The position numbers and the translations under genes were made by a program. The notes under the pieces were generated by a model, which saw only the letters and a list, made by a program, of their open reading frames with translations, ran no database searches and was not told the DNA's origin. Positions 5,374 through 37,823 of a stretch of 64,000 bases of DNA are shown here, piece after piece; the stretch's first letter is position 1; every line of letters starts with the position of its first letter. The DNA is from Smittium mucronatum (Eukaryota; Kickxellomycota; Harpellomycetes; Harpellales; Legeriomycetaceae): positions 25,089 to 89,088 of the forward strand of contig LSSL01002192.1 of the NCBI GenBank assembly GCA_001953115.1. The letters are read 5' to 3'.

Positions 5374-8300
5374 TCAAAAATCAGAACTTCCGAAGTGTAT
5401 TTCTGGCATTCTTACAGTATTATTGTATGGACTTCTTATGAAAATCTTTTTTTTTGTTGATTGGGAGAATTCATCTTCGATTTTCCAATTTAAAACTTTA
5501 GATCCCAGAATTAATATATAAAGATAGTTGAACTTTATCCCATTCTTAAAAACCACTAAATTGTTGAGTCTATTTTTTCCCCTAAAGGAGTTATAAATGA
5601 TGGGAAAAGGGTGATATCTCTTCGCTAAATCTATGTCATTTAGGCATTTAGAAAGTAACGTTTCATATTCCAGTTTATCCATGAGCAAGTACTTTTCATA
5701 GTGAGATGGTCGAATAGGCTCCATAGAAGCAAATATTAGGAATTCACTAGCTTGTAAACCAGGCATATAAAATTTGTTTGGCTCTATTCGAACCCATTTT
5801 ATGGTATCATTAAAACCAAAATGTTCAGATTTTGGATTTGGAATTAACTCTATGAAATATTTAAAGCCCTGTTTAAGGAATATAAATTCAAGTTGATCGT
5901 TTCCAGATAAAATTTGCTTTGTTTTTGACTCCATTAAAGCACTTATAATAGGTACAAATTCCGTGATATCCGAATTAAACGTTCTTAATATAAAATCAAT
6001 ATTCTTTCCCTTCAATTTGCGTTTATTATTTCTAATATAGTTCAAAGGACGATATATGGTTTTGCTGTTAAATAACTCATTCAAGTTAGAAAGAATAAAA
6101 GTTTCTTCATCGGTTACAAAATAATCGAAATCCTCAAAATACAAGATTTTTAATTCGTAATCCATATCTTTAGCCTCTAATATTTTAGAGTCCATAATAT
6201 TAACTGATTGATCGTTAGCAGCTACTTTTCCGTCATTTTTGGGTAAATTTGGACTTGAGTTATTATAATCTTTGTCAATACTAGTCCAATTATCACATAA
6301 AGATTTACTTGCTTCAAATATATCCCTATTTTCGATAAATGAGCCCAAATTTTGAGATAGATTTGTATAAATGTAAACATCTTCATATCTTTCATCTCCT
6401 CTTCTTGGATCCATAAAAACATATATATACACTTTAAAGAGATGAGGGTTTGTATTATATGAGTCTTTAAAAAAAGTTTGGTAGCCCAAAATATGCCCTG
6501 CCCTATCAGATACAGGTAAGATGCTGAAAATTTTATTTGAAGCATTTAAAACACTATTTACATTATTTATGTTTTCATCCATTTCTCTCGCATTGTATAA
6601 ATGCTCTTCTAAACCAATCTTTGAAGTGTTTTGAATAGTCATATTGGGGACAAATAATTCTCGATACATATCTTCCAAAAATTCTTCTGGTATCGAAATA
6701 GTTGAAATGGTCGATGTGATGTTTTTCTGGCAATTATTTATGGGAAAAGTTTGAAAATAAATTCTCTTATATAATTTTTTAAACCAATCCCAAAAACAAG
6801 TTCTATTAAGCTCCTGGATTTTGTCTATAATATGGGGGTCTATTTCCAACACCGGAACTAAATAGACACCATCATACTGGGCTACCACCCGCAAACCTAA
6901 TAAATCAGAATGATATTTATCAAAAAAATCAACCAAGATTTTTTGAAAAGATATCAACTTTTTCAATTCTTCATCGACATCATCATAAGAGAATGAAAAT
7001 GATCGATTTATATTACCATAATCATCACTTATTAACTGAATTTTTATCTCTTCCAAGCATTTAATAGATATAAAAAGGTTATTTAAAGTTAACACACTTA
7101 TTGTAGTTGCACGAATCGATCTAGAAAACGTATCATAAAGTGTAATGATTTGGATATCGTCGTGAGGATTGCCACTTTTAGAAGATATCTGGGATTCATC
7201 AATGTTGCATATGTTTTTTAATTCTATCATATTTGGATTTTGATACTCGTTTTTTCTTAAGTCCAAATGTTCTTCAATTGGTAAATGATAATGATCTGAA
7301 TTATCATTTTTTCTCATATTCTCAATAGGGGCCAGTTTTATTGATGATGGAGTCGAGTTAATTAGGGATATTTTTTTTTGGAAATAATTTTTTTCAGTAA
7401 GTTTTCCATGTATATCATTTATCAATCTCTTTGGTTTAATTTTATGGTAGTTTTGAAAATCATCTAGAGAGAGAAAATCAGGCTGTTTTGTGTTAAATAA
7501 ATTTTTATCTGTGTTATATGACCCTGATTCTAGGATTGCAGCTAAAGTCTGAATATTTTTATTATGGCTATTTCTAAAAGATCCACATTTTTCTTCATTG
7601 TTTATTTTTCCGAATCTTGAATTAAATTTTGGTTCATTAGGGAGTTCAAAGGTGACTTTTTTTTTATTTTCTCGAAAAATTCCACATTTTTGGTTTGTTG
7701 AAAAGCCATGACTGCTTTTTAAACAACTTTTTTGTAATGGATTTTCACTGAGTTGTCGCATAGAATCGTAATTTTTTTTTTTGATCTTTTTATCCCCATT
7801 GGTTGCAGAAGAGATATATTTTCCATGGATTTCACCAGTATAATTTTTAGTATTAATAAAATCTCCAAGAAAGGGATTAGGGGCAGATACAATTCCTGTT
7901 TTTTTAATATATATTTTTTGATATTTTGAATTAGGGTAATTGTTATCGAAATTTAAACCCAGAGGACTCGTTCGATAAAGATTAAATTTTTCGTTTATTT
8001 CTATATCATCATCAATATCATCATATTTTCCTTTAAGATTTCCGAACCCACATTTTCTCAAATCGATGGATACTTGTTTTTCAAAAATTTCACGGTGATT
8101 TTCCTTATGAATTTTATTTAAAAGTTCATGTTGGCTTTTTATACTTCCTTTGTTTCTAAATATTCCAGAAAACATGTATTTTTCATTTTCTTTATCAGAA
8201 AACTCATAGATATTATTATTAGAATTTAAAGATAATCCTTTATAGACAGGGACTATTTCAAATTTGTATTTGTTAAGGTTTTGATTATTATGTTGGTTGA

Positions 8301-8457
8301 TAATTGGAGATTTGCAATTATCAGAAGACTGAGTGCCTCCATTTGTTATCTTAAGACTAAAAGGTTCAATGTCATCCGAAAATTTTTTTTCTAAGAGATC
8401 TGATGGATAGAATGGGTCGTTAAGGGAGTATTCATCTTTAATCTCGTTTTTTTCCAT
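5374..8457 (-). CDS. large intronless protein, family member 1 (1027 aa), unknown function
   Basis: This is one continuous reading frame of 1027 codons, from ATG at 8457 to TGA at 5374; I do not recognise the family. The N-terminal ~430 residues are low-complexity and rich in N, K, S, D and E, with lysine clusters near 223-229 and a KKVTF sequence at 266-270 that fits the generic PP1-docking pattern. A central segment (about 440-570) and a block at 645-701 (GDERYEDVYIYTNLS) align with the copy at 11666-14722. The C-terminal domain (851-1027) carries SGNDQLEFIF, PNKFYMPGLQASEFLIFA, SHYEKY, a DIDLAKRYHPFP block and a terminal SPYNNTVRMPEIHFG. All three copies share this domain. There is no signal peptide or membrane segment, so it is probably intracellular. 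Its G+C is clearly higher than that of the flanks, and there are no lesions, so it is likely a real gene. Function is unknown. Confidence 0.85.
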   Translation of the reverse strand: MEKNEIKDEYSLNDPFYPSDLLEKKFSDDIEPFSLKITNGGTQSSDNCKSPIINQHNNQNLNKYKFEIVPVYKGLSLNSNNNIYEFSDKENEKYMFSGIFRNKGSIKSQHELLNKIHKENHREIFEKQVSIDLRKCGFGNLKGKYDDIDDDIEINEKFNLYRTSPLGLNFDNNYPNSKYQKIYIKKTGIVSAPNPFLGDFINTKNYTGEIHGKYISSATNGDKKIKKKNYDSMRQLSENPLQKSCLKSSHGFSTNQKCGIFRENKKKVTFELPNEPKFNSRFGKINNEEKCGSFRNSHNKNIQTLAAILESGSYNTDKNLFNTKQPDFLSLDDFQNYHKIKPKRLINDIHGKLTEKNYFQKKISLINSTPSSIKLAPIENMRKNDNSDHYHLPIEEHLDLRKNEYQNPNMIELKNICNIDESQISSKSGNPHDDIQIITLYDTFSRSIRATTISVLTLNNLFISIKCLEEIKIQLISDDYGNINRSFSFSYDDVDEELKKLISFQKILVDFFDKYHSDLLGLRVVAQYDGVYLVPVLEIDPHIIDKIQELNRTCFWDWFKKLYKRIYFQTFPINNCQKNITSTISTISIPEEFLEDMYRELFVPNMTIQNTSKIGLEEHLYNAREMDENINNVNSVLNASNKIFSILPVSDRAGHILGYQTFFKDSYNTNPHLFKVYIYVFMDPRRGDERYEDVYIYTNLSQNLGSFIENRDIFEASKSLCDNWTSIDKDYNNSSPNLPKNDGKVAANDQSVNIMDSKILEAKDMDYELKILYFEDFDYFVTDEETFILSNLNELFNSKTIYRPLNYIRNNKRKLKGKNIDFILRTFNSDITEFVPIISALMESKTKQILSGNDQLEFIFLKQGFKYFIELIPNPKSEHFGFNDTIKWVRIEPNKFYMPGLQASEFLIFASMEPIRPSHYEKYLLMDKLEYETLLSKCLNDIDLAKRYHPFPIIYNSFRGKNRLNNLVVFKNGIKFNYLYILILGSKVLNWKIEDEFSQSTKKKIFIRSPYNNTVRMPEIHFGSSDF

Positions 8458-8604
8458 GTTGATAATTATTGTATGTGAAATAGTGAGCTTTAATTTCAGA
8501 TTTAGTTATATTGCTTTAATTTTATCAATAATGCAAATTGAGTTGAATAATTCTAAATAACTACTTATTTGATAAAATTTCTCTTTTTTGGTGATGCTTT
8601 TTAT

Positions 8605-8615
8605 CGTTTATATAC
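8605..8615 (-). promoter_or_regulatory. TATA-like element upstream of family member 1
   Basis: On the minus strand this reads GTATATAAACG, about 150 bases upstream of the ATG at 8457. It has the form of a TATA box. In DNA this A+T-rich such strings arise by chance, so this is only a candidate. Confidence 0.2.
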
Positions 8616-8687
8616 CTTTTCAACGAGCGTTATAAAGTTTTTTTTATCACGACCATAGCCACACTAAAGCTCCCATGATAAGTATTA

Positions 8688-8698
8688 TTCATGTATAA
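8688..8698 (-). promoter_or_regulatory. motif shared upstream of two family members
   Basis: In the sense direction this reads TTATACATGAA, about 231 bases before the ATG. An identical 11-mer lies 208 bases before the ATG of the 11666-14722 gene. A looser match (TTTAA) continues on one side. It could be a shared promoter element or a relic of the duplicated flank. The third family member lacks it. Confidence 0.25.
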
Positions 8699-9541
8699 AA
8701 TCCTTTAAACAAGAATTTTACTGCATAGGCATCTAAAAAAAATCCATTCTTTTGTAATGATTGGGGATTAGCTATTTTTATACTCGAAAATAGTAAAAAA
8801 ACACATTGCCATAAGAAAAAAATTTTCTTTGTTAATGGCTACTGCATCCATCCCAAATAGAAGGTGTGGGAATTTGAATATTTAGGTGAAAACGGATAGA
8901 GCTTTCCTAAGCCACAAGGTAAAAACGGAAATTTAAATAATAGTCGATTGCATAAAGATGATTGCTAATTGTTGATCCTATAAAACATTCAAAATTAAAA
9001 TTATATGCTATTACTCTTTAAAGTTCACAATTAAAAATTCTGCAAATTCTATTAAAAAAGTAGTAATGAAATAAATTTTATTACATTTTCTCTTTATGAA
9101 ATGGAAGTTATAATTACCAAAGCTCATAATATATATAAATATTCTCTACACATATATAGCGCCACCGATTTGAGTATTGTTGTATCAGGTTATTATTTAA
9201 TATTAATCTTTTTATAGAAAGCCTTTTTTAAAATGAATAGCATAATTATTATTTTTTATTTTTACAAAATCAAAAAGCTGATGATTAAAAAATATATCTT
9301 ACTAAAAAAGAATTAGAGAACAATCCAGTTTATTTTATTGAGTCTAATGATTAAAACTTTATTTTGAATTTGAAAAATTCCAAGAAATATTGGTAAATTA
9401 TAAAACTTAATATCTCACTAAATTTAATTATATAAAAATGATAGCTTAGTTTACTCGATTAAATTTATAATTTTAATTTTTTAATTTTTATTTCATTCAT
9501 GAAATTTTGAAAAAGTTCCATAAGTAAAAATTACGTTTTTG

Positions 9542-10170
9542 TTTTTTTGTATAACAGAATTTTATTGCAACATAACCTCATTAAAAACTATAATAAAAAA
9601 AATATGAAACAAAGAAAAAGGCGTATATATATTACTATTATCCTAAACACAATAAGCTCCTCTGCCGAAATACCGGCTGCATACCTACGAGAAAAGGGTG
9701 CAATCTACCAAACGAAAGAGCCCACCTGGCATTGGTTCAAGTAGGTGTATGACTGAGGCTATATTCAGTTAATAATTAAGCTCTTTACAAATGAACAGTA
9801 GTTCATTGAAGCTATTGAGATCTTATCCGGAGCCTAATTATAACAGGATTGATAAAATTAGGCACCTAACCAAACCTGTGTTTGATCGACCTAGCTTTCC
9901 TAAAAATAGCTGAAAAAAGCTGGTTTTTTTCTGACAGCCTAACGCTGGACTTGTGCACTAGGCTATATCTCAGCAGTGCTAAAATATATGTTCTTCCTGT
10001 TTCAAGATGTTTCTTCTCTTAATCGCTGTCCTCCGAATCCCAATGCGCTGTCACCACTACTCCCAACCAAGAATATTACAACGCTGCATGAAATTTTAGT
10101 CTAGTGTACTTCAAAAAGTACACTTTAAACCTCTAAACTATGGCAAGGCATCTCACTATTAGGGGTTTTA
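9542..10170 (-). repeat. dispersed 0.63-kb repeat, copy A (SINE-like retroposon)
   Basis: This 629-bp interval aligns end to end with 27208-27838 on the other strand, with roughly 75-80% identity by eye. Read on the minus strand it begins TAAAACCCCTAA near 10170. A conserved stem-loop follows at 10103-10124, and it ends with CAATAAAATTC-like sequence followed by an A-rich tail at 9542. The A-rich 3' end and the separate 3'-end fragment at 17394-17466 with an (AAAAAT)n tail argue for a non-autonomous retroposon. It is markedly richer in G+C than its surroundings. The open frame at 9547-9744 runs antisense to the element. No RNA polymerase III box could be established. Confidence 0.65.
10103..10124 (-). 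other. conserved stem-loop in repeat copy A
   Basis: This is a nine-base perfect inverted repeat, AGTGTACTT with AAGTACACT, around a four-base loop that reads TTTG on the minus strand. Copy B has the identical stem with loop TTCG. A conserved stem with a changed loop suggests an RNA structure near the 5' end of the element. Confidence 0.55.
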
Positions 10171-11665
10171 TAAAACCGAGAAATTTATAAAAACCATACA
10201 AAAAAAAAGAATAAACACCTTCTTCAACTTTTAATAGATGTTAGATCCAATAGCTTATTTGAATGCGTTGTATTTGATAGGAATATTATCTTTGTGGTCA
10301 GGTAATACTTTATTTATTTTTTACTATCTTAGCAATTGATTAAATGACAACAATACGATTATACATCTATTTTTTTTATAATCTGGAATTATAATTACAA
10401 ATTTTATTTTAATCTAAAAATCACTGAGATTATATAATAACTATTTCCATTATATTTAAATGATTTTTGTAGAGTTTTATTAAAAAGAATCTAATAACTT
10501 AGGTTTTAAAAAAAATTCTGGTTTTGAAAATGATCTAACTTATAAATTAATAATTTTAATTTATTTTGCTTAGAAAAATATTTATGGAAATGATTATAAC
10601 ATTTAAAGTATTGAATTATCGAATTAAGCATATTTAACTGGCTAAGTTTATTTAAATTATATTTTGATTAATTCATATAAAATATTTTAGGGTTTTATTT
10701 TTAAATAGTTGTTAAAAATTGACTCATTAAAATTGCAATTTTTATGAGGTTTTTTTTAGCTTATTAGTTTTTAATTTGAATAAATCTTTATCAGCTAAAT
10801 TTCTGCTTTAGGTATACTTTATCAATAAAAATATCAATTTTCAGAAAATTTAAAACTAAAAAGATAGAATTCATTCAATTTAATCATATTAAATACTTTA
10901 TAGTTTTTAGTAAAAATTTATTGATATTTAGAAACGTTAAAAAAGAAAAATTTGTTGATAAATTTTTTTTTTCTAATCTTTAAATTCAGAGCGAAAGAGA
11001 ATATTTTTTATATAAATAGTATAATAACATATTAAAACCTAATATAAAAATTCAACATCCGTTAAAATAAAAAACTGTAATGTGTAAAGAAAATAGATAA
11101 ATATTCATGCTCTAATGAATTAATATAAATAAAAATTGATTTGATTTGAAAGTTTTGTGAAGAAATTAGTTTGATTACATTTTAAAAATAGTAATTATTT
11201 CTTCAATGATTAAGCTCAAGTTAGAGTTTTGAAAATGTGGGAAAAAAAATCTTCCCAAGGTTTAATTAATAACATTTTTTAAATATTTTTGCATTTTTTT
11301 TTCAACGAAAAATTTTCTATAACAATAATATAAATATGTAAAATTAATACTAGTATTAAAATGAAAAAATGTAAATATTGATCTTTTTTTATATAGTTTC
11401 GCTATTAAAAATAGAGTTTAGTTATCAGATTTAACTGGGTTATAATCATCAAACTTATTTAAAATTGATTAAAATTGATGTTTATTTATTATGAGCTTAA
11501 AACGAATATAGTTTTAATCGTAATTTATTTATCTGGATTTTTTTTTTTAAAATTCATATTTATTGATTTTAAAGATTATGAATAAATTTTAATAAAAGGA
11601 ATAGTTGTTATATTGAAGAAGATTTGAAGGGTCAACTCCTTTTGTAAGCCATATTTTGACCTAAA
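10171..11665. other. AT-rich spacer
   Basis: I see nothing but A+T-rich sequence between the repeat and the 3' end of the second large gene. No open frame has protein-like composition, and there are no RNA-gene features. The last ~100 bases are likely the 3' untranslated region and terminator of the gene at 11666-14722. Confidence 0.5.
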
Positions 11666-14600
11666 TTACCAGGCCCCAAAATATATCATTGGCATCCTAG
11701 CTGTAGAACTATATGGGCTGTGAATATAGTACTTTATCTGGCTAAATCTGGAAAAAGGATCATCGATTTTATCCTTTATAACTTTGTAGTCCAAAACCAG
11801 AATATAAAAGTATTTAAATCTTATCCCGTCCTTAAATATAACCAAGTTATTGAGGTGTCCATCGCAGAAAGAATTGTGCAAAATGGGCAATGGGTGATAT
11901 TTTTCTGCAAGATATATATCACTTTTGCAACGTTTTATTAGCATTTCGTATTCAGGCTTGCTCATGTATGCGTATTTTTCAAAGTGACTTTGATTAATGG
12001 GATCTACAGTAGCAAATATATAAAAATCGCTGACTTGTAATCCAGGCATATAAAATTTGTTTGGTGTCATTAAAACCCAGTTTATTGTATCGTAAATTCC
12101 TGATATTGGAGCCAATTCCAAAGAGAATTTTGATTTATATATCGGAAATATGAATTCAAGTTGGTCGTTTCCATCGATTCTTCTCTCGCTTTTTGTTGAT
12201 ATAGCCATATCAATAAATGGCACAAACCTGGTAAGAGATTCTACTGAAAACTTCACGGTAAATTCTATAACTTTATCAAGCAGCCCCATTTCATTTAGAA
12301 TATTACAATTTAGTGATTCGGCTATTACACTGTTGCAAGCTATTTTCATTATACTTGAGTAAATGTAAGATCTTTTTTCATCGTTGCTGAGATTATTTAC
12401 ATATTCATAATTTATTTTATCTGAAATTGTTCTTTTACTCCTTCTAGTTATAGAGATATTGGGTGAATTTATCTCTAACCCACTGATTCCGAAATCTCCA
12501 TCTTCATTGCCCCTTTCTGACAACTTATCCTTATCAAGGTTAAATGATTTAATTTGCGGGTCTATTTCTCCAATAAAATCTGGATGAGTAACATCTCCTT
12601 CATTAATAAACTCCGATGTTTGTTTGGTATACGTATATATAACAACATCTCTATATCTACGATCACTTGTTCTTTCTTCTATGTTAATATATAGGTAAAT
12701 ATTATATTCTAATGAATTTGTATCATCATCGTCATCGAATAAGCTTTTGTATCCCAAAGAAAAGTTAATAGCTTTTTCTCCTGGGATAATGCTGAAACTA
12801 CTATGCATGGTTTTAATGATATCAGTCATGACATTTTGATCAGCACATAAATCGTTAATTTTATTATCAATACATGTCATCAAACCATCATCATTATCAT
12901 ATTCCGGATCAGAAGAATTGTTGGTGAGAAAAGATCCTTGAGATAAATCATAAAGGCACATGTCAGAATATTCAGTTACAGGAAGAGTTGTTAAAATGTT
13001 TTCTAAATAGCCTGTGTTGCTAAGTGTTTCAATATATTTTTTTTTGTAAATCTCTTTAAATTGATTTCTCAAATTAAGTCGATTCAAGTTTTGGGAGATA
13101 CTAATTTCAGGTGATTCCAGTGATCCTACATCGATTCTATATGCCCCCTCATCTTGAATTATCATCTGAGGACCAAAATCAATAAGATTGTACTTTTGAT
13201 TGAGTCTAATCAATTTGGTTTGACAAGTCATCATCTTATTTAACTCTTTTTTTATTGTGTTAAGAGATGTTTTAAAATACATCTTACTTTTTTGGCTTCC
13301 GTTAATAATAAATATTTGATCTTTTATGTGTTTTAAGGTTTTGATAGATATAAATAAATTGTTTAAAGCCATACCAATGATTGAAAACGCCCTAAGGCCT
13401 TGGTAATATTTTTCAGAAAATCTTTCGATATTAGGATAGCCATTTTTGATGGTCTCCGTAAAATTCTCCGTATTAATTAAAACATTTAAAGGGGGTGTAT
13501 CATAATTCTTATATGGAATCTTTCTGTTAAAGCTCAATTCCTCTTCCATTGACTTATAATGGTTTTCTGATATCAATCTTTTCCCTGTTCTATTTGGTGC
13601 CAATATTATTTGAGGCGAGTCATTTTTTATAGTAAGTGTTTGCTTAAAATCAAATCTTGTTACTTCCTGATTTCCAAATTCACTGTTTATTATTTTCTTT
13701 TTAGGGAGTTTTGGGTAATTTCTTTGTTGGGCTATAGAGTCTAATATAAAACTGTCCAATCTAGATGTACTTTTTAAATTTCTTGATTCATTGTTATCAT
13801 CTTCCTCAAAATTTTCCTTAGTGCTGTTAGTATTTTCTTGGGATAGGTTATAGTTTTTTTCGTTATTTTCTAATTCAAAACTCGAAGATCTAAAGACCTC
13901 TCCCTGAATTCTAGGGCTAGATTTGGTTTTGGTATTTCTAAAATCATTATGATTTTTTTCTACTGAAAGATTTGGATAGCCCTTAAAAGTCTTTTTTTGT
14001 TTATATTTTTTTTCAATTGCAGTTTTTAAATCGAGTCTGTTATTCTGGTTGTTTTTGAAAAATTTTGATGACGTGGGTTTGGTTAGCACAAAATCATTTT
14101 CGTAACCCCCAACCCCAGAAAAATCATCACCAAAAAGGGATACATGAACAAATTTGCTTTTTGAAAGTTGATTATTAACTATTCCATCAACGTTAATATA
14201 TCTTTGAGGGTGTTTGACTTTATTAGAGGAATCTTTTTGAATTGATGTTGATATTTCAGATGTTTCTTCATTATAATCAACGGGTAAATCCATTTTTCCT
14301 TGGCCTAAAGATTCGTATTCTGAAGCCCCATCAACTATCTCATTTTCATGCAGATCAATATTTTGATCCATATACCCCCTCAATGGAGAACCATCATGTC
14401 TAGCGAAAGGTAATTCCCGCTCGGGAATTTGAAAGTCTGAATGGATTCCATAATCATCCAACTGAATAGGATTTATGTCTACAGCTGAATCTATAGACAG
14501 ATCTCCAAATTTTTCATTAATATCTTTATCCGATTCATTTGAATAATGAGAGTTCAAATCATAATCCTCATTAGATTCTCGTTCATGGGGCTCCTGAGAA

Positions 14601-14722: not shown

Positions 14723-15666
14723 TTTAAAGATGGGGTTGCAGATATCTAAATGAATGTAAAATATCTCTGATAAATATTTAAAAGTTCGCCGATTTTTAAA
14801 ACTTAAATACTCTTGAAAGTATTTCTAAGATGATTCAAAGTTTATTTGAAAGGTTTTAAAGTTTTCTTGGATAGATCCACCATCTTAAATACTTTTCGGG
14901 TAGCCATTAAACATTAATAATTTTTAATGTTCATGTATAATACCATTTAAGTTTTCTAAGCTGCGTTTATTTTTAGTAAGATATCCATAAAAAAATAAAA
15001 ATTTGCGTGATTATTTTAAAACACAAATTTTTATATCATTTAAATACATAACATTGTTAAAATTGAAGATGTGTATTATAAGTGATCTTTTTTGTATTTT
15101 GAGAATCCTTTATTAGTATTAATAGTCTTTTCATAAGAGAGAAAAATTTATGAACCTATATTTAGTCATTAATGAGTAATTATCCGGATTAAAAATAGAT
15201 AAATTTGAATCGGAAAAAATTGTTTGTTCTTTCTGAAGAATGAATACATATATTTCATAACTTATCAGTAAAAAATATAAATATTAAAGTTTTATGTATA
15301 TGCGCATTCTTAAATATATTTAAAAATGAATGCATTTTCTTTTCTTTTTTTATTGGTACAACAGCTAGAATATTTTCATTATTGAAAATGCGATTAGTTT
15401 TTTTTAGCTTTTACCTAACTTTAGAATGATGTGCTGTATTATTTCTAAAGTTTAAAACAACCAAAATTGGAGTATTATATTTTTCCATAATGAAGTAACA
15501 TAGTAGAATATATTTTGGTTTAAACAATGAGAATTTAAGATATAAACGAAACATTAAGTTTATGAAGTATTCAATCTCGAAATTGACACTCCAAAATGAA
15601 ATTATGAAATGGATACACGGATTTATGATAAAATCAAAAAATTATACCGAGGTGAAACATAACCAA
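14723..15666. other. spacer between family member 2 and the FKBP gene
   Basis: There is no gene. The half nearer 14723 should hold the 5' untranslated region and promoter of the large gene, including the shared motif at 14930-14940. The half nearer 15666 should hold the 3' end of the FKBP transcript. The rest is A+T-rich without recognisable structure. Confidence 0.5.
14930..14940 (-). promoter_or_regulatory. motif shared upstream of two family members
   Basis: The sense-strand 11-mer TTATACATGAA lies 208 bases before the ATG at 14722. It is identical to the 11-mer 231 bases before the ATG of the 5374-8457 gene. Similar spacing supports a shared promoter element or duplicated flank. The AT-rich background weakens the case. 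Confidence 0.25.
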
Positions 15667-16476
15667 TTAATCAACAGATATTAGCTCAACTTCAAAAATC
15701 AAAGGAGTATTAGGCGGTATTCCTGCGTCTGGCATTCCTTTTTTCCCATAGGCCCATTCACTCTCTATGTTAAGAGTAGCCTTTTCTCCAAGGGACATAG
15801 TCAAAAGACCTTCGTCCCAACCTCTAATAACTCTTCCAGTTCCAACTTTAAATCTTAGAGGTTGAGATTTCCCCTTTTTACCAATGTTAGTATCAAAAAC
15901 CTTTCCATCAGAAAAAGTGCCCTTATAGCTACGAAATATACAAGTAATAAATTATAATAAATACAAGAAATTCAATATAGCAGTTTAATTTAAAAAAAAA
16001 TATTACTAAACAGATACGAAGTCTCCTTTTTTGGGGAATAAAGTATTATTTCCTTTTTTAATCAAAGTCTTTTTAAATTTCGGAACCTCTTTCACCTCGG
16101 GCACTGCAGGAGAATTAGTAGGGGCTGTTTCAGCGACGACTTTTTCTTTTTTAAAATTGGCAATATCGACTTCGTTCTCAGATCTTTTATTAAATTGGAG
16201 AAGAATTTTTATGAAAGGTTACTGTATAAATAAGGTTTATAATAAAGTATTGAATAATTTAATGACTTACCTGAAACTAGATGTTTCGAACAATAAATTA
16301 TAAGCTGAAATTAATGCCGGTTTTTTTGTAACTTTAGCTACGTTTTGAACCTTGCCACCTATTTTGTTATCAAATAAGAATTCGTTTGAGGCATTTGATT
16401 GAAGAAATTCGATTATGTCTTTTTTGGACACTTCATCCGAGACGATTTCTTCATCACTCCATTTTCTATCAACCAT
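15667..16476 (-). CDS. FKBP3: FKBP25-like nuclear peptidyl-prolyl cis-trans isomerase, three exons
   Basis: Exons are 16476-16271, 16183-16007 and 15928-15667, giving 645 nt and 214 residues ending in TAA. Residues 1-69 (SKKDIIEFLQSN, NVAKVTKKPALISAYNLLFE) match the basic tilted helix bundle that marks FKBP25. A charged linker (about 70-105) leads to the FKBP domain (about 106-214). The domain keeps the pocket residues known for FKBPs: Tyr128/129, Phe139-Asp140 (VFDTN), Val161-Ile162 and Trp165 (RVIRGWDE), Tyr188 (EWAYG) and Phe206. The length is close to the 224 residues of vertebrate FKBP25. Family members catalyse proline isomerisation, bind nucleic acid and act in the nucleus. Splice sites were chosen because they restore the frame and the YYKGTF motif. 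The isomerase domain looks intact. Assignment to the FKBP25 group is strong; the gene symbol follows that orthology. Confidence 0.92.
15929..16006 (-). other. FKBP25-like gene intron 2 (78 bp)
   Basis: The donor is TA|GTAATA and the acceptor TTTCGTAG|C. This is the only nearby donor that restores frame and regenerates the conserved FVSVYYKGTF strand of the FKBP domain. An in-frame TAG at the exon edge rules out read-through. Confidence 0.8.
16184..16270 (-). other. FKBP25-like gene intron 1 (87 bp)
   Basis: The donor is AG|GTAAGT and the acceptor AATAAAAG|A. Removing it joins SSF to RSENEV in frame. The acceptor uses AAAG rather than the usual pyrimidine-CAG, which may be typical of this A+T-rich genome. 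An alternative acceptor TATACAG further upstream would not give the same reading. Confidence 0.75.
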
Positions 16477-17135
16477 CTTGGCTTGAAGACTAAAATATTC
16501 GATGTATAATAGTAAGCAAGTCTACGTAATTATCTTCAAACAATTTAGTCGTGTGTAAATAAGGTTATTGCTCTAGTTTTATATTTCATATACTATAGTG
16601 ATCAAATTATTTTTTCCATTCGCAGGATTTATCGTTGATGTCAGTTACGATATTTTTGAAAGCCAATGTTTTCGTCCCATTTATTTAATATAGCTTAATC
16701 ATTTAAAAAATTAACCTAATTCGCTAAAATTATTGGTACCAATCACTATTGTTGGGTAAGCAAATTTCACGGACTATTTTGAATAAATAAATTAGATCCC
16801 ATCTCTTCAGCCAACACATCAATGAACGAGATTGGCTATTTATTTTAAGGGAAAATGTGAAAGCCCTTTGATCTGTAATTAAATCACCGACCTGAACCAA
16901 TATCAACTTGCATTATCCAAATCCGGTTTTTTTCTACATTTTAATATTATTTATATTTTTTTTCCAGTAAATTAGTTTATTTTAATAAATTCAAAAATGG
17001 AGTTGCGAAAATGACTTTTATTTAATGTATAAAAAAATATTATAAAAAATTAGAAGACCCTAAATAAAACTAAGTACATTCATACAAATAAAATTTCTAT
17101 CCAGTAATTTTTATCGAAAAGTTGACTATTCATAT
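16477..17135. other. 5' flank of the FKBP gene and spacer
   Basis: The part next to 16477 is the presumed promoter of the FKBP25-like gene. A moderately GC-richer segment at 16620-16920 has an open minus-strand frame of about 60 codons with protein-like composition (GDLITDQRAFTFSLKINSQS) but no recognised homologue. It may be a decayed fragment or chance. No other feature is seen. Confidence 0.4.
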
Positions 17136-17163
17136 ACAGTACGACCCCGCTTAATTCCGCACC
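17136..17163 (+). mobile_element. solo pogo/Tigger-like terminal inverted repeat
   Basis: This reads TACAGTACGACCCCGCTTAA and continues TTCCGCAC. It closely resembles the arms of the hairpin element at 17273-17348 and the CAGT...ACCCCGCTTA ends of pogo/Tigger-type DNA transposons that insert at TA. No partner end is clear, so this is a relic. Confidence 0.55.
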
Positions 17164-25100: not shown

Positions 25101-27207
25101 TATATAGATTTTGTAGCACATTGAAGGCTAAAAATTTTATTTATATTTATCGGTCTTTAAAATAGGTAAGATAAATGGCGATAGCTATGTAAAAGAAGTT
25201 TAAGTGTGAAATAAATATATTTAAGGAGAGTTTAAAAAAGTTTCTCTTATATCTAATGCTATATCAGACTTTATTTTCATTAATTTTAAAAAAACAAAAG
25301 TGATTTTAAAATAATTATCTTGAGTTTTTTATGAAATTATTTAAAACTACTAAAAAAATTCGACATTATTTAGAGAAAAAAATGTCCGAAAGAATAGCAA
25401 AAAAAAATCGTACTTTTTAATTATATTTTTTAAAAATATTCTTTGGATTAGTTATAATTTTATTTAATATGAAATTAAATATTTCATTAATGCGCATGAT
25501 GAAAAGCGACTGCTTTTTATTTTTAACAAATAAAGTTTTTAATAAAAAAGTAATTTCAATATAACTTTTATTTAAAGAACGTTTTTTTTTTTATTGTAAT
25601 TAAATTTAAAATAAATAATTATAAAAATTACTAGCATAATTTCTAAAAAAGTTAATTTTTATGTAATTATTCTATATTTTTTTTAAAAAATCTATTTCAA
25701 TTATGAATTAATTGGATAATATTCAATCAAGAATGAAGAATTTATAAAAAATAAGCGAGTAACATCATAAGATATAGCATTTATATATAAACGATTGCGG
25801 ATATTTAAAATGTTTTAAAAAATAGAAAAATGATAGGAAAGGGTGAAGAAAAATCAAAAGTAACTTTAAAAATCACCAATTTTAGAAAACAACATTTGAA
25901 ATTATATACTTGCTTTAAATTGAGATACACAATAATTTCAAAATAAGGGGGGTTTTACCATTATGACGTATCTTTAACTAAAAAAATGTAAGTAATCTAA
26001 AACACCCATAAAAAATAATTTTAGATTTATAATTAACCAAAAAATTTTGGATCGATTCCGTCAGAATTCATAAAATAAAAAATAAAAATCAATAATTTTT
26101 ACTTTGAATTATTTATTATTTATAATTAAAGTAAGCGTGGTATATTCAAAAAATACTACACTTAATCTATTTAGTTATAAAAAATTTTAATTAAAAAATC
26201 ATTAAATAAAGATCAGTTCAACTTTTAGCTGATGCTAGTTTATAAATATTTTATGCGCTTTAATTAATGATAAAAAGATAGTATCTTTTACCAAAAAATA
26301 TACATGATTACTATTAAATATTTTATCGTAATTTTTTACCTGTAAAGATAAAGCCATTCAATTTAAAAAAACGTGAACCCGAGTATCTAAATAACCTCTT
26401 ATAAAAAAATTTTGATCGAGTTGTTTTTTAATATTATAATAAATAGCTAATTTATGATTCTAATGTAAAAAAATCTAATTTTATCAAATTTATTGGTCTG
26501 AAAAATTAATAAACATTAGAAAAACTTAATACTCTCATAAAAAATTGTGATAAGTTATTTTGAAATAACTTTATCAACCTCTTACTGGTTAGATATATAT
26601 TTAAATCGCACCTGATTAATCTAAATCCCAATCTAATCTATTTAAAACTAAATGTATTTAGAATTATATGCAACAAAATTGAGAATAAATAGCTTCATTT
26701 TTTCAAATTAACCATCTTTGGGAGTAGATTTTTGACTTATTCTTTTTTGTGAATATTGGCTACCACAATAAGTCATAAGATTTTTTTTAACCAATAATAC
26801 GAAATAATTGCTTTTTAATGACAGAATTTGCAATAAAATAATATTGATTTATGTTCGGCCAGCCCTGAAAGTGCTAAATTGACTCTGAAATAAGCATGAC
26901 TATCAAATTTTATATTCTAGATACTATCTATTATTTTATCGAAAAAACTGATTATTTATTCAAATATACAATTGAATTTTCATATTTTATAGAGGTTCGA
27001 TTCTGCTTCTGCCTTATATTCTGTTAAATATCATGAGTAAAATAATTGACTATTTTATCTATTTCCGGATCCCTAAATCCAGTGTTAAATTTTATAGATT
27101 CCCTTCATCACCAATTTCGTATTAATTATATAAAATTTTGTCTTTTATCTACAACTTTTTATATAGCATCGCAGTTTCGTGATGTTAAAATTTTTAAAAA
27201 TAAAACT
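22176..27207. other. AT-rich spacer
   Basis: About 5 kb of A+T-rich DNA with no supported gene. Open frames at 22750-22938, 23337-23519 and 27046-27252 have chance-like or overlapping composition. I found no RNA gene or long repeat. Confidence 0.5.
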
Positions 27208-27838
27208 AAAACCCCTAAGAGTGAAATACCTTGCCGTGTTTTAGGAGCTTAATAGTGTACTTTTCGAAGTACACTAGACCAAAATTTCACACAGCGTTAT
27301 ACTATTCTTGGTTGGGAATAGTGGAGACAGCGCACAGATATTCGGAGGACAGCGATTACAGATGAGGACGATCTCGAAACAGGAGGAACCGATCGCTTAG
27401 CACATCTGAGACATATTCCAGTTCACAATTCCAGCGTTCGACAGTCAGAAGGATCTCGGCTTCTAACAGATATTTGTAGGAAAACCATGTCGATCAATCC
27501 CACGTTTGGGTAGGAGCATAATTAAATTAATCCTGTTAGAAGTAGGCTCTGACTAGGAGCTCAGTAAATTCGATGAACTATTATTCGTTGACAAAGAGCT
27601 TAATTCTTGATTGCACGTAACCTCAGTCATCAAGCCTACTTGAAGCAATGCCAAGGGGGGTCTTTCGGTTGGTAGATTGAACCCTTTTCCAGTAGATACG
27701 CAGCCGGTAGTCCGGCAGAGGAGCTTATTGTAGTTAGGATAATAGTCTTTTCTATCCGTCTTTTCATTTTTTTTCATATTTTTTAGTATAGTTTTTAATG
27801 ATGTTATATTACAATAAAATTCCGTGATACAAAAAAAT
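27208..27838 (+). repeat. dispersed 0.63-kb repeat, copy B (SINE-like retroposon)
   Basis: This 631-bp copy lies opposite in orientation to copy A at 9542-10170. It begins AAAACCCCTAAGAG, carries the stem-loop at 27254-27275, includes the shared stretches TTCGGAGGACAGCGATTA and GCAGAGGAGCTTATTGT, and ends ACAATAAAATTCCGTGATAC then A-rich sequence. Near-equal lengths and collinear similarity define the boundaries. Antisense to the element, both copies keep an open frame with the same peptide pattern (ISSSA, PAAYL, EKG, IYQ, FK-stop). That may reflect an ancestral coding part or recent common origin. No source gene for its 5' part is recognised. Confidence 0.65.
27254..27275 (+). other. conserved stem-loop in repeat copy B
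   Basis: Nine-base arms AGTGTACTT and AAGTACACT enclose a TTCG loop. The UUCG tetraloop is a stable RNA loop type, although its closing pair here is T-A rather than C-G. Copy A has the same arms and a TTTG loop. Confidence 0.55.
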
Positions 27839-30800
27839 AAAGCTAAAAATGACTCTTTTTTTAAAATCCTCAAGTTGAAAAAATTGATTGACTTTTTAAG
27901 AGATAGAAAATGAGTTCCAATTCAAAATTTTAGGAAACTAAGCTAATTATAGAGACTAATTTAACGGGATATTTCTATAAAATTAAAAACAAGAAGCATT
28001 TTCTATCTGACTGTAAAGAATTAGAAATTCTTACATCTTTAAAACTAAAATATTCGAATTTACAGTTTTATTTAAAATGAAAGTTTAGTGATGCTAGAAT
28101 GTAATAAATAGCAAATAATTTCTAATTTCTCATTTTTTAAAGGTAAAAAAATAATAATTAACAGATAGAGCTCAAAATTTAATCCTAAAATCAACTTTGA
28201 AACCAATATCGTTATTTTACTTCTTCTATTAAATAACTGAAAGAGCTATTAATTAATACATTCTCAATTTAAATAATCCATCAAGTATTAACCAACTTTC
28301 AAGATATCAATTATTTCGCCGAGTTATAAATCAATAGAATTTTTTTCGTTAATAACCGATTGTTTGCTAAATACGTAATTCGAATTTTAATATACGACAG
28401 GTATTTTGAAAAAAATGACTAATAAAAAATAAGAGATACATATTAAATGAGAATATCGTGTTTTTAAGATAATCAAGGGAATGTATTTTTTAGTTATAAG
28501 GTTTTATCATTATAATACACAATTACGATATAATCTCTATTAAAAGTTTAAAATTGAATTATATAAGCCTTTAAAATAACGAAATAGGAATTTTTATTTA
28601 TTTATTTGAAATAAGGATAAATTTAATAAATACAAAATTTAAAAAAACTATAACAATAAGCTGTTAAAATAGAAAAATATTTTTTTCAAATCCTGAAATC
28701 CCTAATGGCTTTTTACTAACATGAAAATTTGCAAAGAAGGCGCAGATATCATTTATGTATTAGTGAAGATCCAAAGATATTTTCATCTCATTTATAAACA
28801 CTACCCACAATTTTTTTAGAAGTCCATAATAATTATCACATAGTGTTCTAACGGAAGAAAATTTAGCATTATTGATAAGGTCAACTTGAATTTATATGGC
28901 TCTTTTTTAGAGTGAATCACAACTATTTATGTATGCACACCGAGATATCCTAAATAAGCAATGATGGTCACGAAATAAGGCTGACTTGGAAGTATAGCCT
29001 GTAGATTTTCTCGAAAAAACTTCTGATATACCATTTCTATATCTAAAAATATAATAAAATCAAATTAAGATCCATAATTATCTGTTCTAATTATTGTAAC
29101 TCTTTTTTCAGATAAGTATACGTATTTTTGTTTTACACTTTTATTTTTGTTTTTACCCGATTAAAATAATTTTTTATCTCTAAAAATCCCAAAAAAACCT
29201 TGGGACTTATTCAAAACAAACTTCAAATACCAGTGCAGCTTTGGGGTTTCGGTTAATAGACTTCATTTGTAAAAATAATTAAATTTTAATAAATACCAGA
29301 AAATATCAATACGTTTTTTTTTCGTAAAATTTGCCATTCTTTCAATTGGGTTTTGAAAAGAGCCAGGGTTCATCTAAAAGCTCAGATAGATTGCTGAAAA
29401 GGATTATTACCTCTCAAAATATCTAAAAAAAATTTTAATTTATCTTAAGAGATGGATATGGTTTTTTTTTTCTAAGTTTCCCATCCCCTTAAAATAATCG
29501 CTTAGGAATAAAAATAAACTGTTAAATTCTTGAAAATTAAAATTCGTGAAGGTGTAAAAGTTATGTTCTGATAACTTATCAAATTATATATTCACCCTTT
29601 GAGATTCATAATCTATAGAAACCTTCGTTGGATGATTTATGTTAGATGTGAGAGCCGCTAGTTTCCAATTGTTTAAAAAATTTTGGAATCTTAAGTCTGA
29701 AATTTATTTTAGGAAAAATATTATAATTTTCTGTTTTCTATTATTATGTTAAAAAAAAACATCTGATATAAATATAGATGTGAATTTATCCAAAAATTAT
29801 GATTATTTTTCGTAGCAGATATTTATAAAAATCTTTAGTTAAATTAATCAAATAACCTATAAAAAGCAAAAAAAATTAATTTTCATTAATATCGATCAAA
29901 TTTTTAATCGCTCAAGTTAATAAAAAATGGCAAAATATTCATAATAAATTATAATTTTAAATTTTTTATGTAAAAAAAATGTTAAGTTGAATAAATTTTC
30001 AGAATTCCAATATTTGCTTGCATCTCAATTATACGAAAATTTTTAATTTTACGATTTATACGATTTATTAAGACCATGTATCAAACTTATTTTTTTGTTA
30101 TATTTAAGAGGGTCCAATACGGTAATTTCCTAAAATATAATTATAAACATTTTTATAAAAGTCTTTACTCGCAAAATTCTGTATCTAACAATAAAATATA
30201 TTACTTTGTAAAAGAAAAATGTAAAATAAAAATTCCATTATTTTTACAAAATCGTTTAAAAAACATTAGCGAACCTTTAATAAATTTTTTTTTAAAATCA
30301 ATTTATTTTTTTATTTCTTTTTAGTGCACGAAATATTTCCTCAACCATATTTTGGAAATAATTCATTTTCATTAATATAATTACTATACTAATAAAATAT
30401 TTTAAATTAGGTTATAACATCAAATAAAAAACTCCCCCATTCTCCCATCATCTGCACCTAAAGGGCTTGAGATCTTTATTTCTATGTATTATAATGCATA
30501 TTTGTTGTTTCAGAAAACTTTAGTATATTCTATGTGAATGAAAAAAACAAATGAAAACTTCTTTATATTAAAAAAAAATGCTAAACCGATTGGAGTTTAG
30601 CTAATATTCTCATGAAATAAAATACGGATCTAAATTTTTTTATAATTTAAATCAAAGGATGATGAGAGCTTTGTAAAATATATTCATATTTTTTTGTTTT
30701 AGTAGAAGTAATATTATACATATTATTGGATTCTTTATGTGTATAATTTTTTTTAAAAAAAATTTCTTTTGTAAATCAAAATATAAAAACTCTTTCGAAT

Positions 30801-32775: not shown

Positions 32776-33480
32776 TTAACAACCAAAATTTTTAAACTTT
32801 ACTGATATGCCTGCATAACTTATTATAGTTGTATCTCCTTTTATCATATCTTTGGCTGCTCCAATTTCCCTGTTATAGGGTCCATCTAAAGCTTCTGATA
32901 CAATGATATCGATTTCAAAATTATAATGTTTTCAATTCTTTCTTTACCTATTTATCATATAGATATATTTTTTAAATTTTCTGATAAAATTATTTATTTC
33001 AATTCTTCTTTCCTTTTGTGATACAAGTTAGTTTTAACTAGAAAAAAAGTTTCATTTCTGTATGAATCTTTGTAAATAATATTTTCAATTGATGATCCTC
33101 CCCCCTTTTATTTAAGAATCAGATTAACTAGATTTAGATGCTTTTCATTCAGATTTGATTTATTATAGTCATTTCTCTCAATGTAGCTGATTCAAAGAAC
33201 TCAAACTCTGAAATTAAATAACCAAGTTTTTTTTAAATGAAATAGTTATCGTACTGCTATAATTATCCAGGAATTTCATTCAATCTTGTAATGTGACATT
33301 TAAATCTTTTTTTTTATACCTGATAAACCTTATTCGGAAATCGCGATAAAAAGTAGTTTGTACACTTCCAATTGTATCAATTTTCTTAATATTATGAAAA
33401 TCTGAAATTGAAGAATGAATTTTGATTTTAGACCAGGTTTTTTCAATATAAATAGTATTTAATTTTTCAATTTTGCTTTT
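32776..33480 (-). pseudogene. decayed coding region, family unknown
   Basis: Minus-strand frames give ordered protein-like pieces. The first is an open stretch of about 67 codons from 33480 (KIEKLNTIYIEKTWSKIKIH, SISDFHNIKKIDTIGSVQTT, FYRDFRIRFIRY) ending at a TGA near 33288. Then come EFEFFESATLREMTIINQ in another frame, IENIIYKDSYRNETFFLVKT, and finally EIDIIVSEALDGPYNREIGA plus AKDMIKGDTTIISYAGIS, ending in TAA at 32776. Several stops and frame changes occur between pieces. It may be a dead gene or an unrecognised multi-exon gene. No homologue is recognised, and it does not resemble the large protein family. Confidence 0.4.
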
Positions 33481-34787
33481 TACATGAAAAATCCAAAAAA
33501 AATCAATTGGGATAAAATAATTATTAAATTAATATAATGCCTAAGACTTTGTAAAATGTTCTTATTATATTCAAAAAATTTATTAATGAGAAAAAACAGG
33601 GCTTTAATTTTGCATATATGATGATTTTTATATGTAATTATAAAAATCCAAAAGAATCGAAAAAAATTGGAGACTATCTCTTAATTCAGAAATTTATGGT
33701 AATAATCTTTACCATTTCCAAATTGTAAAATCTACTTTTTTAATAAATAAAATTATTGATTAGTTTGAAATTTGAACCGATAAATAGAATTCTTATGTTG
33801 AAAAGATGCTAAATATTTACTGAGCAGGTATGTTTTTTATATTCATCAACTTAGTGATTATTAAATTTTATTTTAGCCAATATCAATCATAGTATAATAA
33901 ATCCTGGTCTTGGAAAGAATTACACAAAAACAAAAAGCATAATAACCTTATTAAATTTTATCTATGCTTTCATTCCATTGTTTAAGATAATATTTTATAC
34001 GCAAAAAATTGAGATTTTGTTAATCTATTTTAATATACAACTAATAAAATGATGATTATTTAATACCCAAAAATTAAATATGTTCATTTATGCAATTTTT
34101 AATTAATATATGTATGACTGTGTTTTTTTATTTATCATCATTTCGATTGCTTTTATAAATCATTAATTGTAAAAATTTCAATTTTACGAGAGAAAGCATA
34201 CACACAAAAGTAAAATAGCTGATTATATATATAATTATAAAATTTTAAATTTTATTAAGCTAAACAATAAAAAAAAGTTGCTGTTGCATTGTCAAATATT
34301 TTAAAGATATACACCACTTATATACCATTGTGGTAGTCGTTGCTGTTCTAACCCAAATTTAGGACATGTTTGCTGTTATGTGTTATTATTACATTAATAT
34401 TTAAGAAATAAATTACGGTGAATAATTAGAAAACGTTTATTCTTGTTGTAAATATTAAAAATAATTTCTGAAATATAAAATTCAGCTTGGGGATTTTTCA
34501 TTATGTCCATGATTTTAGAAATTGCAAAAAAACAAATTATCTGTATTCCATTGTTAAAAAATAATAAAAACCAAATAAAAAACAATTTTTTTATAATTAA
34601 ATAACATAAATAGATAAATATTCTAATAAAATCATCAAACAACATTTGAAATTCTATTTAACCTTAATCTTTTATATCTTATAACAATTTTTTATTGAAA
34701 ATTTTCTAAATTAATAATTTTTATAAAACGATTAAACATTTTCTGAATAACTGCGTTAAAAAAAGACAAAACCCCATGAGGTAAAAA
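33481..34787. other. 5' flank of family member 3
   Basis: No gene is seen. The stretch 34277-34377 has GTTGCTGTT twice (34277, 34339) and a related GTTTGCTGTT near 34368, some 410-510 bases before the ATG at 34788. This could be a short repeated regulatory motif or chance. The open frame at 34394-34645 on the minus strand is F/I/L-rich and not supported. Confidence 0.4.
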
Positions 34788-37700
34788 ATGAGATATCCTG
34801 AAAAAATTGGGGGTTCAAGTTCGAAAATTCCCGAAAAAGGTCGCTTAAACGAGCATCACGAGTATCCTACAAATTTTTACAAGTATCTTCAGAAGGAAGA
34901 ATCCGAGATAAATGAAAATTTAATTAATATGAATGTATCAGTAGCTTCTGAAAATTCACTAGCGATAAACGCAGTTGATAAAGACTCTCTGCAAACAGTA
35001 CATAGATTCGAACACGAAATGGAAAATCAATTAAATTTAGACCTACGGGATTCAAAGTTGAACTTGATTTTTGAAATAAATCAAACAGAAAATAATGTAA
35101 GCACAAAAGAAGCGTATTATGAAAAGCAGGATATGTTGAAAAATCAAAACGATGAATTATATACAGGTGATTATATGTTATTTTCAGACATGAAGGACAA
35201 AACATTATATAACTTCGAGCCGAGAGATGATGTTTTTTATTCAAAAAAAACAGAAGTTTCCAATGAGGAGATTGGTTTAAAATCAACCCTCGATTTCGAA
35301 AATTTTATATTCAACTCTGGAGAAAATGATTATTGCAATAAACCCTTTTCAAAAAAAAGATATCTTAATTGTGATTCAAAGGAATATAATTTTTTTGATA
35401 ACGACAACCGCCAACATATAACTGACAGAAAAGTTGAGTCAATGCAAAAAAATACACCTGAAAAAAATTTTGGTAGGAGAATTAGTGGATTAATCAAAAC
35501 TGTCACGAATAATAATAATGATTTCACAAGTCAAAACATAGAATATAAGGGAGGCTTAGAAGGATTACTAGGGGACAACGAACTGGATTTAATTCAAGGA
35601 AATATCGGAAATAGCACCTCATACTTTGAGAAAGATAATTCTGCTTTAGAAGGTATCACATCTGTCAAAAAAAGAAGTGACGATGAATTTAAAATCTTTC
35701 TAAACTCTCGGCTAACTAATATCAAGTTATCTCAAAATCTTTCTGATTTTATTTCATTAGCAGAAAATCAAGAATATTCGAATAAAGTTAGAGATATGGA
35801 TTCAATTCAGGTATCCCTAAGATCCTCCAATCAAACGATTTCACACAACAGTAAAGGGATATATTTGAACAAAATTTCCGAATTGGATAAATTCTTTAAA
35901 AAGGATTTAACTTTGGATAAAAATAATTCACTTGAAGTTTTAGACAGAAAAAACTATGATTCAAACAATTTTAAAAAAAATTTGGAGTACTATATACACA
36001 AATCTAGCCACGATTTTAAAAATCTCACATCTGAAAGTGAAATATGTTATATTAAAGTTATATCCATATTCATGACAATGATGAACAATATGTATACTCG
36101 AATAAAGCTCTTAGGTTATGTAAAAAACAACTCAAATGCTATTTCAAAAGACTTAAACTACATTAAGACTCAAACATCCAAATTGAATTTTGATTATGAA
36201 ATAAAGAGATTGAAGGATTGTCAAAACTCTCTTTTAGTCATGTTTAAAAAATGCAATATAGTAAGTTTGATTGAAGATTTTTTAGAAATCGGAGATGGGG
36301 TATGCTGCTTCAAAGGATCCTTCGAGACTAGCAAATATTCAAGTTTAGAAATTTCAAAGTTTATTGTCCAAATAAAAGTCGAAACAGAGATAATATCACA
36401 GAAAAACATTTCTTTGTTTTGGGATGGCATTTCTCAAACACAATCATACATTAAATTTGTTTCATTTCCCATTTTTCCGAATTTTCAAAAAAGTTTTAAA
36501 GATGTTTGTATGAATATCTTAAGCTCTAGAATAAACAATTTCTTTGAAAAAAACCAAAAAGTTGGAAAATCCAAAATCGATCTGATGGAAATATGCTCTA
36601 AATTAATAGAAAATATATTTATATTCATCAACAACAATTTTTCTTTTATACATCCTGTTTATAAATACGAAGATCATGATTACAAGTTATGCATAAATAG
36701 CGATGGACTAAATCGAAGAAAAAATTACAATTTCACATTTACTAATGTCAAAACCAGCTATTTCGACATTGATAGATCTTTTATTAGCTGCAACATATAT
36801 ACTGAACTATCTTTGGATGACGAAATAACTTTATACAATAGAAAATCATTTTTTGAAAATGAAGTACCCATTCAAAATTCTAAAGAGGATTGTTTGGTAA
36901 AAAATGATCAAGAGTGCTTTTTAAAAACCTTCTATTCCGAATTATGCCCTAATTATAGATCGGAAAATATAAAAAAATTACCAAACTTGCCTGATGAGAT
37001 TAAATCCGATACTTGTAATAGTATTTTAGAATCTTTGATTGATATCAAAATAAAAACGAATTTGGAATATACTATTATAAATAATTTCGACGATTCTTAT
37101 GGTGAAATAATCGCTAATAAAAAAGTTGAAGCAGATTCTTTACAGAAAGATTTTCTTGAAAAAATGGGTTTATCTGAAAAAACTACTGGATTTTTAGTAA
37201 ACCAGGAAACAGGATTTCATACAGGGTTTGTAGAAATTCTAAGTAGGGTTAAGAGATTTAAAACCGGAGAAAAGGTTTCCGGAAATGATCAGCTAAGTTT
37301 CATCTTCAGCAAAGAAGGATACAAAACATTTGTTGAGATATTACCAAATCCCCAAAATAAGTCAATTCTTACAGGAGGCAATCTCAAATGGATTCTTGCA
37401 AGACCCAACTACTCTTATATTTCAGAATTACAAGCTACTGAATTTTTCATATTTGCAACTATTGAACCAATTGACAATAGTCATATGAGTAAATACGAAG
37501 AGCTAAGCACAGATGAGTATATTACGTTAATTAAGAAGTCTAAGCATGATATTAATTTGGCTAAGGAATATTATCCATTTCCAATATTAAGAATATCAAT
37601 TGATCAGAAAGGGGGGTATAGCAAATTTTATGTTTTTAAAAGTAGTATAAAATTCTTTTATTTGTATATCAAAATTTTGGGATCGAAAATTTTGGAGCCG

Positions 37701-37823
37701 AAAATTTTAGATTTAGTCCAGGAGAAAAATAAACTGGGGAGAAAACGAATGAGATTTCGAGTAAATTCCCCGTGGATATCAACGGCTAGAATGCCAGAGA
37801 TATATTTCGGTGAATCAATGTAG
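34788..37823 (+). CDS. large intronless protein, family member 3 (1011 aa), unknown function
   Basis: This is a single frame from ATG at 34788 to TAG at 37821-37823, the most diverged of the three paralogues and the only one on the plus strand. The N-terminal ~410 residues are N/S/D/K/E-rich and not alignable. The central segment (from about 421, YIKVISIFMTMMNNMYTRIK) corresponds to residues 449-468 of member 1. The C-terminal domain (831-1011) keeps SGNDQLSFIF, a W-x(5)-PN region, SELQATEFFIFATIEPI, SHMSKY, DINLAKEYYPFPI, ILGSKIL and the end SPWISTARMPEIYFG. Like its paralogues it lacks a signal peptide and membrane segments. Conservation of the C-terminal core against a freely varying N-terminus, with no stop in over 1,000 codons of AT-rich DNA, indicates selection. 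Biological role is unknown. Confidence 0.85.
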   Translation: MRYPEKIGGSSSKIPEKGRLNEHHEYPTNFYKYLQKEESEINENLINMNVSVASENSLAINAVDKDSLQTVHRFEHEMENQLNLDLRDSKLNLIFEINQTENNVSTKEAYYEKQDMLKNQNDELYTGDYMLFSDMKDKTLYNFEPRDDVFYSKKTEVSNEEIGLKSTLDFENFIFNSGENDYCNKPFSKKRYLNCDSKEYNFFDNDNRQHITDRKVESMQKNTPEKNFGRRISGLIKTVTNNNNDFTSQNIEYKGGLEGLLGDNELDLIQGNIGNSTSYFEKDNSALEGITSVKKRSDDEFKIFLNSRLTNIKLSQNLSDFISLAENQEYSNKVRDMDSIQVSLRSSNQTISHNSKGIYLNKISELDKFFKKDLTLDKNNSLEVLDRKNYDSNNFKKNLEYYIHKSSHDFKNLTSESEICYIKVISIFMTMMNNMYTRIKLLGYVKNNSNAISKDLNYIKTQTSKLNFDYEIKRLKDCQNSLLVMFKKCNIVSLIEDFLEIGDGVCCFKGSFETSKYSSLEISKFIVQIKVETEIISQKNISLFWDGISQTQSYIKFVSFPIFPNFQKSFKDVCMNILSSRINNFFEKNQKVGKSKIDLMEICSKLIENIFIFINNNFSFIHPVYKYEDHDYKLCINSDGLNRRKNYNFTFTNVKTSYFDIDRSFISCNIYTELSLDDEITLYNRKSFFENEVPIQNSKEDCLVKNDQECFLKTFYSELCPNYRSENIKKLPNLPDEIKSDTCNSILESLIDIKIKTNLEYTIINNFDDSYGEIIANKKVEADSLQKDFLEKMGLSEKTTGFLVNQETGFHTGFVEILSRVKRFKTGEKVSGNDQLSFIFSKEGYKTFVEILPNPQNKSILTGGNLKWILARPNYSYISELQATEFFIFATIEPIDNSHMSKYEELSTDEYITLIKKSKHDINLAKEYYPFPILRISIDQKGGYSKFYVFKSSIKFFYLYIKILGSKILEPKILDLVQEKNKLGRKRMRFRVNSPWISTARMPEIYFGESM

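Follow-up and report, generated by a model that had tools for sequence, protein, structure and literature searches.

An apparently lineage-restricted protein family of Smittium mucronatum with variable fronts and a predicted galactose-binding-like C-terminal domain

The galactose-binding-like fold is an eight-stranded beta-sandwich jellyroll. APC10, muskelin and XRCC1 are intracellular adaptors with a jellyroll, and BIR, UBC, kelch and BRCT are further domains found in the group of BIRC6, muskelin, XRCC1 and IFT25. Here we describe a family of long proteins from Smittium mucronatum for whose C-terminal segment (tail) a structure model predicts a fold of the galactose-binding kind (F5/8, APC10-type). 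Harpellales, including Smittium, are described as obligate commensals in insect guts in the abstract of PMC5954228, which gives the S. mucronatum assembly as 102.35 Mb with 26.05% GC. The genome set that we searched (73.8 Mb in 2957 contigs) is probably a subset of that assembly; the window, the whole stretch of 64,000 nucleotides analysed here, corresponds to bases 25089-89088 of contig C1251, whose length is 89,088 bases.

Three long frames and their relatives

Only three open reading frames of at least 300 aa, W1, W2 and W3, stand in the ORF list of the window:

5374..8457, minus strand: W1, 1027 aa, single open frame with ATG
7144..8457, minus strand: W1 front, residues 1-438, hydrophilic and variable; boundary by alignment, GRAVY -1.0
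6013..7143, minus strand: W1 middle, residues 439-815, from alignments; conserved LNNLFISIK-type stretch near its start
5377..6012, minus strand: W1 C-terminal domain, residues 816-1027, from alignment; predicted galactose-binding-like jellyroll with inserted helices
11666..14722, minus strand: W2, 1018 aa, single open frame with ATG
11669..12280, minus strand: W2 C-terminal domain, residues 815-1018, 50% identical to the W1 tail
34788..37823, plus strand: W3, 1011 aa, single open frame with ATG
37173..37820, plus strand: W3 C-terminal domain, residues 796-1011, 45% identical to the W1 tail

An earlier, sequence-only reading of this DNA had given the coordinates, strands and lengths of these frames exactly, and the C-terminal alignment and motifs that it quoted are present. 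No stop-to-stop frame was longer than 175 codons in 20 random sequences of 64 kb and 29% GC, so the three frames, which use the standard code, are not chance products. A genome search with W1 returned W2 at E 2.2e-95 and W3 at E 8.0e-41.

The same reading saw a family of three members; counting copies in the genome gives more. Searches with W1, W3, C92 and C1827a identified at least 15 family loci (W1, W2, W3, C6, C147, C1864, C547, C2575, C507a, C507b, C480, C1827a, C1827b, C2675 and C92), a lower bound drawn from the best-scoring 15-16 candidates per protein search. Their homology lies far beyond chance, and the claim of a true paralogous family is borne out. In a tree of the tails, W1, W2, W3, C6, C147, C1864, C547, C2575 and C480 form one group (split 99/96) and C92, C507a, C507b, C1827a, C1827b and C2675 a second, in which C507a is a long branch of unsure placement. 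Profiles of the two groups, built with neither C507a nor C2575, match each other at 99.6%.

W1-W3 share one contig, C1827a and C1827b another, and C507a and C507b are neighbours on opposite strands. A gene-poor setting had been proposed, which fits the window but not C6 and C147: within about 13 kb of C6 lie what we take to be a GDSL-type hydrolase, a CCT-beta chaperonin and an Lsm-type protein, and C147 presumably has a transporter in its surroundings. All members had also been called intronless. One long frame is present in 13 of the 15 loci, but C1827a and C1827b have two adjacent frames each; in both, GTATG comes after the Asn-Pro-Gly that the first frame reaches, and an AG lies close to where the next conserved frame begins. 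From this pattern we infer an intron at one position, and these two loci thus appear intron-bearing.

The window contains two copies, 80% identical to each other, of a roughly 0.63 kb dispersed repeat, at 9538-10170 (plus strand) and 27207-27841 (minus strand). At least 39 further long genome matches at 81-83% identity, among the best 40 of 2273 candidates, mark it as a high-copy element. The repeat gave no Rfam match; it contains a stretch that, in our estimation, resembles a tRNA B box, and it is possibly a SINE.

Could the family itself be left over from a mobile element, or be domesticated from one? The loci are mostly intronless and multicopy and stand in repeat-rich surroundings, the repeat just described lies upstream of W1, and the flanks of C507a and C507b match the same stretch. 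However, no transposase, integrase or polymerase domain exceeds the Pfam cut-off in 12 proteins (POL3_N, E 0.22 in C507a, lies below it), and flanks of up to 1.5 kb on each side of 15 ORFs yield no DNA match at E<=1e-5 beyond the repeat and the C547/C2575 ends. All tails are open and 12.5-60% identical over 105 pairs, the identical C547/C2575 tails aside, and two loci appear to bear introns. A mobile origin is therefore largely refuted, and we consider it very improbable.

The C480 locus stands apart in composition. Its 13 kb contig has 31-44% GC per kilobase, against 26% for the genome; GC outside ORFs is 35.4%, whereas two ORF-free parts of the window have 17.7-22.1%, and third-position GC is 0.49 in C480 against 0.25-0.31 in eleven other members. 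A foreign origin is spoken against by the neighbouring frames on this contig, at 0.38-0.41, and by seven presumed ordinary genes elsewhere in the genome, which span 0.24-0.40. One other frame on the contig is, as we take it, lectin-like; another is Asn/Ser-rich and ends in a PB1-like segment. We think, from base composition and without regarding it as proven, that C480 comes from another fungus, perhaps another harpellalean, contamination being possible; the family would then predate the species.

Three further features were recorded. At 15670-16521 (minus strand), next to W2, an ordinary gene lies in pieces: its BTHB (E 1.7e-25) and FKBP_C (E 5.3e-27) matches occupy different open frames, a sign that this neighbouring gene may contain introns. 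At 50362-51930 (minus strand), broken frames with a weak hint of an rve_3 integrase core (E 0.022, below cut-off) have the look of a decayed transposon. Contig C2957 (106,654 bases), with a bacterial-type SSU rRNA, two tRNAs nearby and, as we take them to be, nad4L, cox2 and a LAGLIDADG ORF, is a mitochondrial genome. A microsporidian origin of the DNA, brought into view by its base composition, was rejected given this bacterial-type rRNA and the deposited proteins, which carry the name Smittium mucronatum.

Variable fronts and constrained tails

The front halves had been described as unalignable and low-complexity. The former largely stands, although 3 of 78 pairs among 13 fronts, W1/W2 included, align at E<1e-3; the latter does not, as 12-residue windows below 2.2 bits make up 0.2-1.4% of the front against 0-1.0% of the rest in five members. 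GRAVY ranges from -0.77 to -1.10 in the front and from -0.31 to -0.36 in the rest (five members), and mean TOP-IDP scores are 0.09-0.16 in the front versus 0.00-0.08 in middle and tail (10 members). Judged by composition, the front is probably disordered. Under forced alignment the W1 front is 25% identical to that of W2 and 22% to that of W3; for the W1 middle the aligned values are 27% and 28%, and 10 of 45 middle-segment pairs align at E<1e-3.

Four-residue gapped motifs present in at least three of 10 fronts (C2575 left out) number 226, against 216-249 in three shuffles; a slight excess appears for those in at least four fronts (19 against 9-13) and in five (1 against 0). PP1-docking motifs were considered and are not claimed: the seven short patterns, one of them a nuclear-signal pattern, were counted in 11 fronts and had been chosen after inspection of the sequence, the number of tries being uncorrected. 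Strict RVxF occurs twice in total, in 2 of the 11 fronts (a count reached in 21 of 500 shuffles), and a narrower form once (53 of 500), while loose RVxF is as frequent as the mean of the shuffles. For two loose SILK-like patterns the observed counts were reached in 11 and 35 of 500 shuffles and for strict SILK in 205, and the basic nuclear-signal pattern was observed 7 times where 10.2 were expected.

Between W1 and W2, identity at codon positions 1, 2 and 3 is 0.67, 0.68 and 0.43 in the tail and 0.42, 0.49 and 0.41 in the front. In all parts of six pairs pN is below pS, except in the C547/C2575 tail, where both are zero. Together these values show constraint on the protein sequence of the tail, as had been proposed; since pS is saturated in the window pairs (0.67-0.79 in W1/W2 and W1/W3), we rely on codon-position identity and pN<pS and give no dN/dS value. 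The front, as its divergence indicates, is fast-evolving, and no positive selection is seen in it over the six pairs, pS being near saturation in most.

Such a contrast would be expected of allorecognition, conflict or host-interaction proteins with a front under diversifying selection. Fronts do diverge far more than tails, most clearly in C547/C2575, whose last 344 residues (1032 coding bases) are identical while the fronts are 27% identical. Yet front pN lies below pS in six of six pairs (0.435 versus 0.584 in C547/C2575), with pS near saturation in most, and the contigs of this pair share a common 3.69 kb stretch at 94% identity that reaches both contig ends, so that an assembly repeat is possible besides gene conversion. 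We therefore see diversifying recognition as an unlikely explanation.

Database matches and the predicted tail fold

Deposited gene models cover the family in part. AYI68_g5695 (1075 aa) is identical to C1864, AYI68_g7615 equals residues 130-1185 of C2575, and the first 325 residues of the 336-residue AYI68_g4136 equal W1 597-921. Searches of 5.8 billion proteins yielded no match in one case, AYI68_g4136 with a profile of the tail, and the other two in a further case, all three from S. mucronatum. Such searches depend on common exact words and similar lengths, and one scored the 7992 top word-sharing candidates and missed known members; matches outside S. mucronatum could thus be missed.

Nothing exceeded the Pfam cut-off among 3 proteins (E<=1), 11 tails (E<=5), 5 tails (E<=10) and 9 proteins (E<=1). 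In those proteins and tails neither F5_F8_type_C or CBM32 profiles nor ANAPC10 gave a match, with filters that remove most weak matches. Near-matches to CDI, Cren7, IMP2_N, DUF4858, LemA, POL3_N, UL135 and others were set aside as under cut-off, single-member and inconsistent; that to CDI had E 0.0035 in one tail and E 0.013 with whole C480, where it scored 16 bits and the cut-off is 25. Searches of PDB sequences returned nothing above chance; the seven matches to the profile of the second tail group (E 0.18-0.29, not significant) are one anthranilate synthase and six TRAP-type solute-binding proteins (SiaP/DctP), the six aligning over profile positions 17-99. The words "galactose", "discoidin" and "orphan" are absent from the main text of PMC5954228, and no such family for Harpellales is named among the titles and abstract openings listed in literature searches. 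Within these searches the family is apparently undescribed.

The view that it matches no known family thus holds for Pfam and PDB sequences, but not entirely for structure. An AF2 model of W1 816-1027, of moderate confidence and built from a shallow alignment, consistently drew galactose-binding-like matches in Foldseek, none of them at E<=0.001. A second program, re-ranking the Foldseek list, gave Z = 6.9 at rank 50, where the tool note gives 4-5 as typical. The tail could instead be some other all-beta sandwich whose matches reflect a common strand arrangement: the Foldseek E-values are weak, a virus coat protein is among the rows and the alignment is shallow. Given that one fold class fills nearly all rows shown by both programs, even if the second depends on the first, and given the Z-score, we hold this to be unlikely. 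The sequence-only reading had also offered the family as an undescribed system; structurally, the predicted tail resembles galactose-binding-like domains, with no confident match to one family. This weakens that proposal and covers part of what the reading itself had named as its refutation.

Candidate roles

Our preferred reading, to which we assign a probability of about one half, is that of a lineage-restricted, probably intracellular adaptor family in which a partly helical middle links a variable front to a galactose-binding-like C-terminal beta-sandwich. The front, in most members some 350-600 residues long, evolves fast, is hydrophilic and probably disordered, and would bear short, quickly changing contacts; the C-terminal jellyroll with its helical insert would hold a ligand. 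Cell location, adaptor role and any ligand we infer, the adaptor role by analogy: a conserved jellyroll with long hydrophilic parts recalls APC10, muskelin and XRCC1. As neither a signal peptide nor a membrane span is visible in the window members, the ligand is, in our view, more likely a protein, peptide or nucleic acid than a sugar.

The same absence bears on whether these proteins could be secreted or wall-bound lectin-like adhesins that grip the insect gut, their tails binding sugars like CBM32 or discoidins. Many sugar-binding CBM32 modules do occur among the fold matches. In a simple hydropathy scan, however, W1-W3 show no obvious signal peptide or membrane span, the best 12-residue means within the first 30 residues being 0.07, -0.01 and -0.62; values are less clear elsewhere in this crude scan (1.47 in C6, 1.67 in the second frame of C1827a and 1.98 in an internal stretch of C480). 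An adhesin role seems doubtful to us, and the adaptor is ranked above it as above the mobile-element and allorecognition readings.

We further speculate, with low expectation, that this is a gut-fungus-specific intracellular recognition family, in which an old jellyroll reader, common to a second fungus of foreign composition in the assembly, would be joined to fronts that turn over almost fully and possibly re-target the reader or serve self/non-self recognition. Should the adaptor reading be right, it would provide a predicted fold for a multicopy family that public gene models fragment or call hypothetical, in a fungal order whose genomes are large and AT-rich. A probably intracellular galactose-binding-like domain would then have undergone a lineage-specific expansion.

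Of the described systems, the predicted tail fold comes close to the F5/8 type C (discoidin) domains and to CBM32; the tail differs in having no Pfam match and a helical insert between strands, the window members show no evident signal peptide, and sugar or lipid binding by the tail is not indicated. APC10/Doc1 (ANAPC10) resembles the tail in predicted fold as well, whereas the family has no ANAPC10 Pfam match, many paralogues, a long hydrophilic front and no sign of a link to the APC/C. The BIRC6 jellyroll domains, muskelin, the XRCC1 N-terminal domain and IFT25 are structural matches to the tail at 6-10% identity, and the BIR, UBC, kelch and BRCT domains of those proteins were not found by Pfam in 12 family proteins. 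On present evidence the family is not a new kind of system: it is apparently confined to one lineage, and the fold predicted for its tail is a familiar one.
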